Notes: generated from the sequence alone by a model not told the origin. 64,000 nt of DNA from Armatimonadetes bacterium 55-13 (GCA_001898035.1 MKRX01000006.1:3439-67438); one strand, 5' to 3'; counted from the stretch's first letter, positions 54,823-60,914 are shown. A program made the numbers and translations.

Positions 54823-55799
54823 TCAGACTCCCACGAGTTCTTCCGTTTCCTCTGCTTCTTTTGCTTCTCGCTCTCGAACTTGCCTTTTCAAGAGATCCGA
54901 ATACAAACCCACCACGATCACCGCCATAAAACCGACAGGGAGATTCTTCTCGTGCAGCAATTGCTCAACCAAATTTACGATGGCCACCGCCGCTAAGAAC
55001 CAGTTCATCGAAAGAAGAAACGCTCGCCAGTGATCGCGAGGTCGCACCACCTTCATCGCGCTTCTACCGAGAAGCATCGAGTCGGACCTCAGGGGCAGGT
55101 CGTCGTTCCTATCCACCGGCTTGGGCAAAGTGGCCATTCCCTCTAGTCGGGAAATGTATTGTCTGATCGTTGCCTCAGGATCCTTTCCTGACTCTCGAAT
55201 TTCGATATTGACGCAGCCTTCAACTTCACTGTCTTTCCACCTGACGCGAAGAAGCGGAACGCGGTAACCCCAACCCACCCCTTCCACTACACCGACCGAA
55301 TCAATGCTTGTACAAGGTAGTTCAAACGATGAAGCCAAGCCCTTGAACTTCAGAAATCCGCCACCAATCGAAAGGCAGCCTCGGTCCCACATGCAATCGC
55401 CCCGCAATTCCGCCAGACCTGGACCATACGAGACACCCACGTAAATCCCATTCGGAACTGACGGCACAAGCGACTTACGATCTTCCCGATAGTTAGCTTC
55501 TATCGTCCACCTTCGAACCAAACCTCGTCCTTGCGAGAAGATTCCGAAAACGATCAAGGCCACCATCGCCAGCAGGGCGTAGGCCGCCATTCCTTGACGT
55601 GCCCAGCCAAGCCAGTCAATGATCGCGTATACCCAATGATCAGCGAGAAGATAAGAACCACAAATGCGACATAGAGAACTTGGCGACCCCAACCATAGCG
55701 GTGGGGAATGTTGCCATAGCGCGCAAGCCCACTCTCGGACTTGGATGCCGTGACCGCCCATATCTCCTCGAACTTACTTTCCATCGCTGCCGAATCCAT
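54823..55799 (-). pseudogene. Paralogue A of a tandem membrane-protein family, frameshifted
   Basis: The reading starts at the ATG at 55799 (MDSAAMESKFEEIWAV), 4 bases after the upstream paralogue's stop, and reaches the first membrane segment QVLYVAFVVLIFSLI. It then must shift by one base near 55633-55665 to continue as DHWVYAIIDWLGWARQG and the rest of the family sequence, ending at 54823. The second frame alone starts no earlier than a Met at 55590 with any plausibility. The shared soluble domain is present (YVGVSYGPGLAELRGD, MWDRGCLSIGGGFLKFKG), as are two C-terminal membrane helices. Either a decayed gene or an assembly error. Confidence 0.65.
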
Positions 55800-55803
55800 T
55801 GTA

Positions 55804-56811
55804 TTAAAGGGGACTATTGGACATCCCTTTCTCCTTGCTTCTCTGTCGTCGAACCGCAAGGGTATAGGGCAAGCGCAGTCCCACATGGAGAACAAGAGGC
55901 AAGATGGCAACGGCCGCCCCGATCAGCGGCGTCTCGGCGAATCCGAGCAAGAGTGCGCCGGAAACCCCTGCCACGAATGCAATCGCCAGCAGGTAGTCCA
56001 TCTTTCGCACCATGCCGGCAGGACTCTTTGCAAAGTTGAACTTCGATGAGGGAATCGGCGTTTTTGACTTGTCCAACTTCACTGTCGGATATTCCTGGCC
56101 CGCCTGAATCATGCCGTCTGCAAGAGCCTGTGTGCCTTTCCACCAGTTGCTCAGCGAATCCGTCTCTCTGAGTTCGAATTTAAGATGATTGGATTGGCCC
56201 GAGTCGTCAATCCACTCCGCCGCGATGATCGGGGTCCGGCTTCCCAACACCGTCACCGCCTCTGCTACCCGCAGGTGTCGGAGTTGGCAGGCAGGAATCT
56301 CAAACTGCGTGTCCATCCCCTTGAAGATGAGCCGCCCCTCTCTCAGCTGCAATGTTCCCATATCCCACATCGCATCCCCCAGATAGCGCCATAGTCCTGC
56401 AGAATAGGCAACACCAACAACTTGTCCGCCTTCTGAGTTCACCTCGAGTCTTCGCCGGACTCCTTGAAAGTCTTTCACCCGGTAGCCCGGTGCCACCCGC
56501 CCAATCTCCCAAAACAAGAAAGTCACATAAGCCAGCACGACCAACCAGGAGATCTCGACACTAATCAGTCTGATCAAGGCGATGGGACCTACCACTGTGA
56601 GCAGAATCCAAAGCAAGATTTTGCCGTGTGACTCGGATAGATCTCGGGCTGACTGTCCGCGAAAGGAAGATTTCATCTCCTTCAGGTCCGCAGGAAGGGA
56701 GCCCACATAGATGGTTTCGGCGGCCGAGAAAGGGAGTTTCGTCGACGAATTTGCTGCGACGACCTCTTGCCCCGTACGCTTGTCTTCTTCAGGCAGCAAA
56801 TCGTGGTTCAT
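55804..56811 (-). CDS. Paralogue B of a tandem membrane-protein family, unknown function
   Basis: 335 residues from the ATG at 56811, with AGGTGA just upstream formed by the end of the previous gene. Layout: about 65 polar residues, two membrane helices (ILLWILLTVVGPIALIRLIS; ISWLVVLAYVTFLFWEIG), a soluble domain of about 170 residues and two more helices (LLAIAFVAGVSGALLLGFAE). The soluble domain contains VGVAYSAGLWRYLGDAMWD, TLQLREGRLIFKGMDTQFEI and SNHLKFELRETDSLSNWW, a strand pattern like bacterial PH/GRAM domains. That fold is my inference. Paralogues lie on both sides in one operon. Confidence 0.75.
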   Translation of the reverse strand: MNHDLLPEEDKRTGQEVVAANSSTKLPFSAAETIYVGSLPADLKEMKSSFRGQSARDLSESHGKILLWILLTVVGPIALIRLISVEISWLVVLAYVTFLFWEIGRVAPGYRVKDFQGVRRRLEVNSEGGQVVGVAYSAGLWRYLGDAMWDMGTLQLREGRLIFKGMDTQFEIPACQLRHLRVAEAVTVLGSRTPIIAAEWIDDSGQSNHLKFELRETDSLSNWWKGTQALADGMIQAGQEYPTVKLDKSKTPIPSSKFNFAKSPAGMVRKMDYLLAIAFVAGVSGALLLGFAETPLIGAAVAILPLVLHVGLRLPYTLAVRRQRSKEKGMSNSPL

Positions 56812-56812
56812 A

Positions 56813-57811
56813 TCACCTAGCGCCCGTCCTTTGCCGCCTGAAAGCAGCCAACCGCCAGAGAATCTTACGGTAGATCCATCCTGCAATCCCGCTTACAAAT
56901 GGAATGACTAGCCAAATCAGAGGAAATTCCCTTCCCATCCAGCTGACCAAAACAATCCCAAGTCCAACCGCCAGTATCACAACCCCACATGCCATCCAAA
57001 GATCGAACCGACTCATTCTCGAAGCCTCTCCATGGCTGAACTCGAGGGAAGACGAACGAAAGGGTGCCTTCCATTCGTTCGTGATCCAGACCCGTTTCGC
57101 ATGCCCTTTCTTAGCCTCCAGCCCTCGGGCGAACGAGCGTGAATGCGCCCACCATTTAGAGAGAGAACTCCACTCGCGTAACTCCAGCAAAATTGACTGC
57201 GACTGACCATCTTCATCGAGCCAAGTCAGGGAAATGAGAGGAATCTCGCAATTCAACAAGGTGCGTGCCCGGATAACCTTGGCCGAAACCAATCGACCCA
57301 TCGGGAGAATAAACTTTCGTTCGTAACCGCGGAAAATCAATTCATCTTCTTCGACAGTGAGAAAGCCACGATCCCACATCGGATCGCCCCGGAAAGACCA
57401 GACACCTTCCGAATAAGCAATCCCAACGTAATACTCATCGGGCTGCCCTTCACCTAGGGCCTCCACGTCCCGAATCCTCGTCTCATCGAAGGTCCATCGA
57501 TGAAGCAACGCCGAGAATTTTCCGGTGACGTAAGTTGCCGTCCAACCGAGACCAACTAGAGGGACCAAGCCCACCAATCTAGCCCCGATCATGCAAAGCA
57601 ACCCTACGACAAACAAGCAAATTCCCACAAAACCTGTCGCCAGCATCGACCATATGGGGGCCGGAGGATGGGGGACCCCGCGAAAGGCTTGCAGGTCGTA
57701 ATTGGCAGGGAGCGGGGAAATCGCTAGCGTAGATTCAATTTGAATAGGAGTCTCAATCTCGGCAGAATTCAGGTTCGGAAGTTGCCTTTTTGTCGTCGCC
57801 ATGACACCCAT
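56813..57811 (-). CDS. Paralogue C of a tandem membrane-protein family, unknown function
   Basis: 332 residues from the ATG at 57811 (ATG at 57802 also possible). Same plan as paralogue B: polar N-terminus, two membrane helices (LATGFVGICLFVVGLLCMIG; LVPLVGLGWTATYVTG), soluble PH/GRAM-like domain (YVGIAYSEGVWSFRGDPMWD, FLTVEEDELIFRGYERKFIL, SQSILLELREWSSLSKWW), then two helices and a basic tail (FRRQRTGAR). Shared signature: Y-V-G-x-x-Y-x-x-G, G-D-x-M-W-D-x-G, L-x-F-x-G, L-E-L-R-E. First gene of the three-paralogue operon, divergent from an ArsR-type regulator that may control it. Confidence 0.75.
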   Translation of the reverse strand: MGVMATTKRQLPNLNSAEIETPIQIESTLAISPLPANYDLQAFRGVPHPPAPIWSMLATGFVGICLFVVGLLCMIGARLVGLVPLVGLGWTATYVTGKFSALLHRWTFDETRIRDVEALGEGQPDEYYVGIAYSEGVWSFRGDPMWDRGFLTVEEDELIFRGYERKFILPMGRLVSAKVIRARTLLNCEIPLISLTWLDEDGQSQSILLELREWSSLSKWWAHSRSFARGLEAKKGHAKRVWITNEWKAPFRSSSLEFSHGEASRMSRFDLWMACGVVILAVGLGIVLVSWMGREFPLIWLVIPFVSGIAGWIYRKILWRLAAFRRQRTGAR

Positions 57812-57820
57812 CCCCAATGA

Positions 57821-57826
57821 ATTCTA
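57821..57826 (-). promoter_or_regulatory. -10 element TAGAAT upstream of the three-paralogue operon
   Basis: On the minus strand TAGAAT ends 9 bases before the ATG at 57811 and supports that start. Confidence 0.45.
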
Positions 57827-57904
57827 TCAAAACGCCTAGAGAAGCTATCGGGTTGCCTTTCTTTAACGGGCAGTTAGAAGACTGTTAAAAATACGTGCTT
57901 TCGC

Positions 57905-57919
57905 GGCAGATCCGCTGCC
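57905..57919. promoter_or_regulatory. Inverted repeat, possible operator between the paralogue operon and the ArsR gene
   Basis: GGCAG-N5-CTGCC lies in the 215-base divergent gap, which otherwise shows no gene. Short and possibly chance. Confidence 0.25.
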
Positions 57920-58026
57920 TTCTGTACTAAAACTATTAGAAGATCGATAGATCGGAAATCGAAATCTCATGGAATTGAATTACCAGATCTCACTGTGTCG
58001 CATTGACCTCGGAAGAAGGAGAAGGG

Positions 58027-58332
58027 ATGGCCGAACCAAAGAGCCTCGAAAGCGAGAATCAGATCACTCGAACCCTCATTGCGCTCGCCGATGAACAAAG
58101 GAGAAGAATTCTAGCCCTCGTAAGGGATCGTGAGTTAAAGCCGATCGAGATATCGGACCTTATGGGGGAGGATTGCCGATCCCTTTCCTATCACTTGAGA
58201 ATTCTGCGGGATTCGGAACTTGTCTCTGTCCGCCCCGAGGGCCGCGTTCACCACTACCGGCTTAATCATCAAGCCATTTGTCGCTTCGGCTTAAATGGCC
58301 TCATCGATCAAAAAGAAGAGGGACCGCGCTAG
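58027..58332 (+). CDS. ArsR-type winged-helix transcriptional regulator
   Basis: 101 residues from the ATG at 58027, which has a strong AGGAG six bases upstream; a start at 58003 is rejected. The winged helix covers LADEQRRRILALVRDRELKP, ISDLMGEDCRSLSYHLRILR (recognition helix) and LVSVRPEGRVHHYRLN (wing). No CVCxD-type metal site is seen, so it probably senses something other than arsenic-type metals, or acts through protein contacts. Divergent from the three-paralogue operon. The TAG stop lies in the loop of its own terminator hairpin. Confidence 0.88.
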   Translation: MAEPKSLESENQITRTLIALADEQRRRILALVRDRELKPIEISDLMGEDCRSLSYHLRILRDSELVSVRPEGRVHHYRLNHQAICRFGLNGLIDQKEEGPR

Positions 58333-58348: not shown

Positions 58349-60535
58349 TTAGCTTCCTTTTCCCTTGAATGGGTCGGTCGACCAGTCATCGACCTTCTTC
58401 TTCTCTTCTTTTGGCTTCTCCAACTTCGAATTGCCAATGGTGAGGGATCCAATCGACTTCAGCCTTGGCGTTCCGTAGACCCCGCGGGTAGTCAGCGGCT
58501 TGTAAGTTTGTCCTTTCAAGCTGCCGTAGATGGTTCGGACATCTTTCTGATCGGACTGCAGATTTCCGCTGATGGAGCGAGTGCTGCCCGCGACTGAGCG
58601 ATACTTCCTGACCGCATCAACCAAGTCGGAAGGCGAGGTTGAAACGACCCCAGTCCTGAAAGTCTGCGCTCCAGTTCTTGACCGTACAGGGCGGATGACC
58701 ACTTCGCCGTCGGCCTTGACCGTGTAGACGCCATCCTTGACCGTAACCACCACGTTCTTGCCGCTGATCTCCCAGGCGTCCCCAACCTGCACGCCGTCTC
58801 GAACGATGGTCGCCAAACTTTGGCCCGGCACACCCGCTCTCGCGACTTGACCATTTGCGGGGCGCGTCAGCGTCCGACCAACGGCTACGTTCTGAACGAT
58901 TGGGTCTTCTCGAACGATGTAGCTAGAGGGCTGATCGATCACGTAGGATTTGGCGTCTCCCCGAATCACCACCACATCTTGCGCCTTTGGTTCGGCGCGT
59001 TGGTTCACGACCACGTCCGCCGCGACCGTGCCTAGCGTACTCGCCTTCGTCTCAGTGACCGTGTTCGTCGTTACGATCTCGGTTTTCGGAATCGTCTTTC
59101 CCTTTTCGGCCTTGACCTTGTCGACTTTGATCCGCTGAAGGTCCTTGGACTCCACGATCTTGCCATCGATGACGACGATGTTATCCCTGATCGTCTTCAC
59201 TTTCTTTCCATCATTCGTGCGGATCTCGATGACTCGAGTCTTTTTGCCATCCTTGCCTGGCTTGACTTGCCAGATCACGATATTTCCGGCAGTTTTCTGA
59301 TCCGGCTTGGGATGTGCCAGTTCTACGGTGTTGCCATTCTTGACCTCTCGAATGACGACGTCTCTGCTCACCTTCTGCCCCTTCTTCGGCTTGACAAGCT
59401 TCCACGTCTTACCGTCCTTTGATCGCTCAACGATGATCACGTCCTCGGACTTGGTCACGATCTTCTTATCGTTTTCAACTTTCGGCTTCTCCTTTTGCGG
59501 TAAGTCCTCGAAAGGCAAGGCGGCCGCCACCAAGTTATAAGCGGGCAACATGCTCATGGTCAGAAGTGCTAGCGCGGCAGTAGCCGTGCGGCGCCAGAAT
59601 GTCGGTTTCGAGTTGAAATGTTTCATAGCTTCTAATCTCCGGTGGATCGTTCGATAGGACTCCGCCATCGGCAGAGCGCCCGGGGCAAATCGGGGACGGG
59701 CGATAACCGTGGCCCGCAAAAGCATGTCGGCATAGGTCTGAATCGGTACCCCCGCCAGTCGGGAAGCGTCTTGATCGGTTGCCGATTCATGGTCGAGTCG
59801 CGAGCATCGCGCCGCGATCCAAACCATCGGGTTAAAGAAAAAGAGTGACTGAACCAAGGACGCCAGCCCAAACCACCAGAGGTCTCGCCGCGCGATGTGC
59901 GCTACCTCATGCGCGATCATGAGACGCTGGTCGCTCAGGCTTCCCTGCGTGAGAGAACTCTCCGGCAACACGATGGAATAGCCTTTGCCGCCCACCAACA
60001 TGGCCGTAGTCGCATCGGAGGAGGCCAGCAGACGCGGACGACGTCGCAAGTTGGCGCGACGGCAAAGCTCGTCCAAAGCCTCTTGCAGATCGGGATCGTT
60101 CACCTCGGTTGAGCACCGGACCAGACGCATATTTCTGACCGTTCCCCACGCGGCATATCCGCAGATCGCAAAAGCACCCATCAACCACATCGCAATCAAC
60201 GGATCGGGAGTAGCGGCAGGCGCGTTGATCGGCGTTTCCGTAATCTCGGCATCTTCAACTGGCGTGGGATTCGACGTCAATCTCGTTGACTCTTCGATGT
60301 AGTAGAAGTCGGACGGCATTGCCTTTGAATTCGCGACAGGAGCCGCTCCCGGCAAGACCGGCAGACTAATCACCGCAAAGGGCAAGAGACTAAGCAAGGG
60401 CTTCAAAAATGCCAAACGCCACATCCAGACCTTTGCATTGGCTGGAATCGACGGCACAAGGCGGAAAATGCCCCAGAGTGCCAAAAAGAGAATGCCGCTC
60501 TGGATCGCGGTCAGCCAGAGAGTTTCCTTAAGCAT
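58349..60535 (-). CDS. M56 family (BlaR1-like) membrane metallopeptidase with a novel repeat-rich C-terminal domain
   Basis: 728 residues. Membrane helices near 10-27, 40-63, 112-131 and 315-340 enclose a cytoplasmic zinc peptidase loop with HEVAH (209-213) and the third ligand Glu250 in DHESATD. This matches BlaR1/MecR1, which cleave the BlaI repressor upon signal. BlaR1 ends in a penicillin-binding sensor; here residues about 345-728 are instead Lys/Val-rich with imperfect repeats (DVIIVERSKDGKTWKLV, DVVIREVKNGNTVELA, NIVIWQVKPGKDGKKTR, NIVVIDGKIV) and later Ser/Thr-rich sequence. The ligand is thus unknown. Overlaps blaI by 8 bases. Confidence 0.9.
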   Translation of the reverse strand: MLKETLWLTAIQSGILFLALWGIFRLVPSIPANAKVWMWRLAFLKPLLSLLPFAVISLPVLPGAAPVANSKAMPSDFYYIEESTRLTSNPTPVEDAEITETPINAPAATPDPLIAMWLMGAFAICGYAAWGTVRNMRLVRCSTEVNDPDLQEALDELCRRANLRRRPRLLASSDATTAMLVGGKGYSIVLPESSLTQGSLSDQRLMIAHEVAHIARRDLWWFGLASLVQSLFFFNPMVWIAARCSRLDHESATDQDASRLAGVPIQTYADMLLRATVIARPRFAPGALPMAESYRTIHRRLEAMKHFNSKPTFWRRTATAALALLTMSMLPAYNLVAAALPFEDLPQKEKPKVENDKKIVTKSEDVIIVERSKDGKTWKLVKPKKGQKVSRDVVIREVKNGNTVELAHPKPDQKTAGNIVIWQVKPGKDGKKTRVIEIRTNDGKKVKTIRDNIVVIDGKIVESKDLQRIKVDKVKAEKGKTIPKTEIVTTNTVTETKASTLGTVAADVVVNQRAEPKAQDVVVIRGDAKSYVIDQPSSYIVREDPIVQNVAVGRTLTRPANGQVARAGVPGQSLATIVRDGVQVGDAWEISGKNVVVTVKDGVYTVKADGEVVIRPVRSRTGAQTFRTGVVSTSPSDLVDAVRKYRSVAGSTRSISGNLQSDQKDVRTIYGSLKGQTYKPLTTRGVYGTPRLKSIGSLTIGNSKLEKPKEEKKKVDDWSTDPFKGKGS

Positions 60536-60914
60536 CTCTCCCCTCCTCCAAGCTCTTCACCAATCGGCGAAGGTCTTCAAGCTGCCGCTCATCCACTTCC
60601 GCCCGGCTTCCCAAATAAGCCACCAGCGGCGCAACCGATCCCCCCAAAACCGACTGCACGAAATCGTCCACAAAATTCTCAAAGAGCGTTCCCTTCGTCT
60701 CAGACGGGAAGTAGCGGAACACCCCGTCCACCTTTTCCCGATCCAAAAAGCCCTTCTTGCGGAGCCGTTCCATCATGTTCAATGCCGTATTCCGGGTCTG
60801 CCCCTTGGTTTCCGTCAGGTAGTCCCCCACCTCCGTCACCGTCGCCTTACCCCGCTCGGCAATAAACCGAAGGACCTCCACTTCCGCTCGACCTACACTT
60901 GGTTTCTTGTTCAT
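60528..60914 (-). CDS. blaI: BlaI/MecI/CopY family transcriptional repressor
   Basis: 128 residues, normal for the family. The winged helix covers VGRAEVEVLRFIAERGKATV, GDYLTETKGQTRNTALNMME (recognition helix) and LRKKGFLDREKVDGVFRYFP, followed by a C-terminal dimerisation helix region. The repressor should bind the two identical operators just upstream and be cut by the M56 peptidase encoded with it. The target genes in addition to its own operon are unknown; no beta-lactamase of class A lies nearby. Symbol denotes the family, not proven beta-lactam control. Confidence 0.92.
   Translation of the reverse strand: MNKKPSVGRAEVEVLRFIAERGKATVTEVGDYLTETKGQTRNTALNMMERLRKKGFLDREKVDGVFRYFPSETKGTLFENFVDDFVQSVLGGSVAPLVAYLGSRAEVDERQLEDLRRLVKSLEEGRDA

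Follow-up and report, generated by a model that had tools for sequence, protein, structure and literature searches.

A tandem array of paralogous membrane proteins with a predicted PH domain, belonging to an uncharacterised protein family of the Armatimonadota

Introduction

Three genes, packed almost without spacing, encode similar membrane proteins in Armatimonadetes bacterium 55-13. To which family do they belong, and what might their products do together? The genes lie in the stretch of 64,000 nucleotides analyzed here (MKRX01000006.1:3439-67438, hereafter the window). A first-pass annotation, made from the sequence alone, had described three tandem paralogues with a PH/GRAM-like domain beside a divergent ArsR regulator, perhaps forming a hetero-oligomeric envelope complex. 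Membrane PH proteins such as YdbS/YdbT and their relatives occur widely in bacteria, and little is understood about them. The present analysis adds to them a separate family with a predicted PH domain. This family has an architecture of its own, occurs in natural arrays of several genes, is fused to peptidases in some genomes and, in one subfamily, forms an operon with an ECF sigma gene.

Organization of the array

The features of the locus and of related loci are given in Table 1. One base separates the stop of gene A from the ATG of gene B, and four bases separate the stop of B from the ATG of gene C. When the window's own genome was searched with A, the only significant matches were B (32%) and C (29%), with the E-values of Table 1. 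The motifs (V)VGxxYxxG, GDxMWDxG, LxFxG and E(L/I)RE are common to the three genes. The soluble part of B is flanked at each end by two hydrophobic segments. Gene A has four such segments as well, of which one falls under a simple hydropathy threshold, yet is a helix in the structural model. Given the E-values between the paralogues, together with homologues in 135 genomes (see below), coincidence is excluded as an explanation of the array. Promoter-like sites were no more frequent than expected by chance. Tandem paralogy, a spacing of 1-4 bases, the shared motifs and the plan of two helices, soluble domain and two helices had all been described correctly.

The count of three genes has to be qualified. 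A and B are full frames, whereas gene C is frameshifted in the assembly, through mutation or assembly error, a break which the first reading had missed. The frame opened by the ATG of C ends after 81 codons and contains TM1, LYVAFVVLIFSLIIG, a strong hydrophobic segment at the expected place. The remainder of the protein (TM2, PH domain, TM3-4) is encoded in a second frame, open from 55773 to 54823. As TM1 and the rest of the protein are in different frames, gene C requires a -1 shift, probably positioned near 55634-55557. A profile built without C matched the main frame with an E-value of 9e-29, and the N-terminal frame weakly (E 0.08). A programmed frameshift was considered and rejected, since inspection by eye revealed no classical slippery heptamer at the GGG of 55634-55632.

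Table 1. Features of the window and of related loci in other Armatimonadota genomes (window positions are counted from its first nucleotide)
Feature	Position	Strand	Description and basis
Gene A	57802 (ATG) to 56813 (stop)	-	329 aa; 2TM - PH-like - 2TM; ORF, motifs, hydropathy, AlphaFold
Gene B, paralogue of A	56811 (ATG)-55804	-	335 aa; ORF, E 4e-30 to A, hydropathy
Gene C, main open frame	54823..55773	-	TM2, PH-like domain, TM3-TM4; E 4e-14 to A
Gene C, N-terminal frame	ATG 55799, closes 55557	-	TM1; hydrophobic segment and position
ArsR-family regulator, divergent	58003..58332, likely ATG 58027	+	HTH_5 E 2.8e-7
M56 (BlaR1-type) membrane metallopeptidase, beyond ArsR	58349..60535	-	PF05569 E 1.1e-34
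BlaI-type repressor (Penicillinase_R), paired with the M56 gene	60528..60914	-	PF03965 E 3.9e-21
Three-gene array	L029 5941-8964
Seven-gene array	L107:5728-12554 (G141:C25)		Directly downstream of a mutL-like gene
Two-gene arrays	L108, L109
Double-copy ORF	L127:8577-10310 (G141:C103)		578 aa, two module copies; beside a 340 aa single-copy gene (3 copies in 2 ORFs)
M48 metallopeptidases with C-terminal 2TM-PH-2TM fusion	L071:9736-12243, L076:7735-10497, L077:1101-3125
PH - ECF sigma - zf-HC2/DUF4349 operon (example)	L069:8757-11834 and 9 similar loci		A DUF5658 gene precedes in four

Predicted fold and topology

The soluble domain is predicted with confidence to adopt a PH fold, a type of fold that binds lipids or proteins. 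A family member (L093), modeled from an alignment of 26 sequences led by it, gave a pLDDT of 90.3 and a pTM of 0.82; its chain begins with a pair of helices and a connecting helix, continues through seven main strands and a C-terminal helix, and closes with a second pair of helices. The AlphaFold model of gene A presents the same plan, with an overall confidence of 68.8 and values of 85-95 for most of the soluble part, the predicted PH fold covering about residues 119-235. For both models, all matches listed by VIA-align were PH, PTB, GLUE, FERM-F3 or related domains, with best Z scores of 9.0 and 9.3 and, for the top matches, an rmsd of about 2.7-3.1 over 95-104 residues. Foldseek results were also consistent with a PH domain for both models (probability near 1 for the top matches, with E-values above 0.001). 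The predicted models show seven strands and a helix, as expected of the PH-like superfold, a barrel of seven strands with a C-terminal helix as its cap. The initial guess of a PH-like domain is thus supported by structure prediction.

Arginine and lysine residues amounted to 2.9 per 15 aa in the N-terminal flank, 2.9 after TM2 and 3.6 in the C-terminal flank, against 0.7 and 0.9 in the two short outer loops. This excess in the flanks places the PH domain inside. The N-terminus, the PH domain and the C-terminus are accordingly predicted, from hydropathy and positive-inside counts, to face the cytoplasm.

Distribution and architectures of the family

Searches of family members against Pfam, NCBIfam, PADLOC and the PDB sequences returned weak, scattered matches only. 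DUF6232 was weakly matched by 3 members (E 0.08). TIGR01218 was weakly matched (E 0.016) by one of the 42 members scanned (23 + 19), which is one of the 23, and by none of the 19 array-type members. bPH_2 (PF03703) was not among the matches listed for these 23 and 19 members nor for A, B and C singly, and the window's own genome had no bPH_2 match. The family, which the first-pass annotation had also failed to recognise, is real and no known description of it was found.

Restriction of the genes to a single strain would have spoken against an undescribed system. The profile of A-C detected distant relatives in 38 of the 291 Armatimonadota genomes and, once 20 relatives had been added, matches in 135 of the 291; arrays were also found in other genera. 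A-C are thus tandem paralogues of an uncharacterised, Armatimonadota-wide family of inner-membrane proteins. Its conserved core reads FVGxxPG / D.D.G.L / L.F.GD / LPR..I / RE, and the columns of G126, D143, G145 and G158 are invariant in the alignment of 23 members. A scan of contigs with one narrow motif yielded 26 loci, all of them in Armatimonadota, WS1 or Zipacnadia where the group was named, which only suggests that the family is absent elsewhere. Gene A had zero matches in plasmids and phages.

Three architectures were observed. The long form (about 310 aa, 2TM-PH-2TM) is mostly single-copy in other bacterial families of the Armatimonadota, and the short form (about 200 aa, 2TM-PH) is usually present as a single copy per genome in the bacterial family to which the window belongs. 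In three genomes, the long module is fused to the C-terminus of M48 peptidases. hhalign related the long form to the short form at 99% (E 6e-18) and to the array form at 96% (E 1.4e-9), and by this profile comparison the long, short and array forms are homologous.

In most of the examined genomes of the window's bacterial family, the short form (L051, L042, L079 and others) adjoins a gene of 890-1000 aa and a UvrD-type helicase gene. A search of one such 890-1000 aa neighbor against Pfam returned no match; judging from where it lies and from its sequence, this gene is perhaps AddB-like. A gene named carbon-nitrogen-hydrolase-like by its sequence belongs to the same neighborhood, and flagellin is encoded nearby.

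Neighboring genes and a possible link to membrane metallopeptidases

The divergent ArsR gene, to which attention had been drawn at first, is present. Its pairing with the family is not conserved: close relatives were not found beside family members elsewhere, and no operator-like inverted repeat was detected in 57780-58040. A role as dedicated regulator of the array was rejected because the pairing is not conserved, and the gene is taken as a local neighbor.

Metallopeptidase genes occur near several family members. A single gene lies between the window array and a BlaI-M56 pair, and at L113 in another genome (G141) a family member immediately precedes the genes for BlaI and M56. The window's genome has 8 M56 genes, so that a single M56 adjacency could be due to chance. 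An M48 peptidase gene follows the long-form gene at two loci (L039, L045). Considered together, the M56 adjacencies and the M48 fusions make the link to membrane metallopeptidases a real lead, and a functional link between the window array and its M56 neighbor is possible. The same adjacencies and fusions could mean that the domain is a regulatory or substrate-adaptor module for M48 and M56 enzymes, the window array and the nearby M56 protein acting in regulated membrane proteolysis. We regard this explanation as unlikely, as no peptidase gene is next door at most loci and, in the window, the oppositely oriented ArsR gene stands between the array and the M56 gene, which itself ends in a terminator-like hairpin.

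Another association was observed in one subfamily: at 10 of 14 loci, genes for an ECF sigma factor and a zf-HC2/DUF4349 protein come after the PH gene, all in the same orientation, as a conserved operon of sigma/anti-sigma-like type.

Tandem arrays in other genomes

Further profiles (A6, A7) were used to find more arrays in other genera of the window's bacterial family. The first-pass annotation had named a lack of conservation of the array outside the strain as grounds for refutation; arrays of the family do exist elsewhere, with two, three and seven tandem genes. The seven genes of the longest array all encode 2TM-PH-2TM proteins and are strongly diverged, with a stop/start overlap at three of the junctions between them. 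The same genome (G141) contains 16 family matches. In a phylogenetic tree, the window array clusters with single genes of three genomes (G137, G130, G141), and the seven-gene array lies with its own relatives across the midpoint root. This tree is rough, with modest deep supports, very long branches and very diverged sequences. As the two arrays are in different branches, tandem expansion probably occurred more than once.

The tandem copies are peculiar to their lineages and have diverged far from each other (about 15-31% identity), with up to 16 matches per genome; in this they recall the TsaI (DUF443) and EsaG strings of Firmicutes, which are tandem immunity paralogues (PMC9484751, PMC7456083). 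The arrays might likewise be immunity or self-protection cassettes, each diverged paralogue neutralizing a different membrane-acting toxin or peptide, and the single weak TIGR01218 match mentioned above points the same way. This seems quite unlikely to us: array-type members gave no such match, no toxin or secretion gene was recognised among the listed array neighbors, and the single-copy long and short forms are kept across many genera, the short form at a stable place, unlike immunity genes.

The broken frame of gene C and the very long branches could also be signs of a decaying duplication without current function, in which copies drift; the array is moreover absent from the two other searched genomes of the genus, which are about 75% complete. 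Nevertheless, A and B retain full frames, all motifs and tight spacing, A retains the predicted fold, and arrays with intact frames persist elsewhere, which makes decay improbable.

Proposed role

We tentatively favor, at somewhat less than even confidence, an inner-membrane (hetero-)oligomeric complex of paralogues with cytoplasmic PH modules, involved in envelope stress. The four membrane helices, arranged in two hairpins, would hold the PH domain at the cytoplasmic face. By analogy with bacterial PH rings, the PH domains would most likely be protein-protein assembly modules, in which case paralogues from one operon would co-assemble as a hetero-oligomeric membrane complex. This complex may act in the response to envelope or membrane stress as a scaffold, adaptor or gate. 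It may also work with membrane metallopeptidases of the M48 and M56 families, and its counterparts in sister lineages may be controlled by an ECF sigma factor. The hetero-oligomeric envelope complex suggested at first is plausible, and both the recurrence of arrays and the literature on bacterial PH domains fit it by analogy. Most long-form members outside the window's bacterial family are single genes, so hetero-oligomers would not be obligatory.

Some observations argue against this proposal: the neighbors of the window-type clade vary, the ECF operon is a feature of a different subfamily, and gene C lacks an intact frame in this assembly.

A more far-reaching version would see in the arrays the subunits of hetero-oligomeric PH rings or pores, tuned by duplication (1 to 7 genes) in a combinatorial, Armatimonadota-specific manner and coupled to ECF sigma factors and M48/M56 peptidases. 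We hold it to be very unlikely; if true, assemblies of this combinatorial type would be new among membrane complexes. The architecture, arrays, peptidase fusions and ECF-sigma operon of the family together open the oligomeric role suggested for bacterial PH domains to testing, in a phylum nearly devoid of functional data.

Comparison with known systems

M48 peptidases of the HtpX/Ste24/LoiP type have the domain fused or adjacent in several genomes, whereas the window proteins have no peptidase domain. TsaI proteins (DUF443, TIGR01218) also occur as strings of diverged membrane paralogues, but TIGR01218 is named as a five-TM family, and its weak match concerns one of 42 members. To our knowledge, no PH fold is known for TIGR01218.

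The bPH_1/PHb family (PF08000, DUF1696) shares with the window family the bacterial PH fold, as predicted here, and a link to envelope stress. Its PH domains form oligomeric rings, as described in a structural paper of 2010, which also proposed that membrane forms of bacterial PH proteins are pores or transporters, the PH domain mediating oligomerisation (PMC2817789). PF08000 differs from the window family in being, according to this paper, the sole PHb family without transmembrane prediction; the window family has no Pfam match.

DdE and DdF, tandem enterococcal membrane PH proteins of YdbS/YdbT type with a similar layout, are required to export the leaderless bacteriocin enterocin DD14 (PMC8657885), and a small-molecule or peptide exporter is by this precedent conceivable for the array, but most improbable given that no peptide or biosynthetic genes were recognised at the window, that the family is separate by profile and that most members are single genes.

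The closest parallel is offered by YdbS/YdbT themselves (bPH_2, PF03703, formerly DUF304), in which a cytoplasmic PH-type domain is also carried by pairs of membrane helices and the genes are in tandem in one operon. Control by ECF sigma factors is a further common point, ydbST being controlled by sigma-W in B. subtilis (PMC3498285). Hydropathy and positive-inside counts predict this type of anchoring, with a cytoplasmic PH domain and two-helix hairpins, for the window family. The two families differ in that the window family has the order 2TM-PH-2TM, is distributed over up to seven separate genes, and has no profile similarity to the YdbS type (hhalign 3.8% for the long form, compared with a set of 11 Armatimonadota proteins, and 1.1% for the short form). 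Genuine YdbS/YdbT pairs (L131-L146) are common in the phylum and coexist with the window family, for example in G141 and G130. In our best reading, the window family would work like YdbS/YdbT but is, as judged from its sequences, a family apart.
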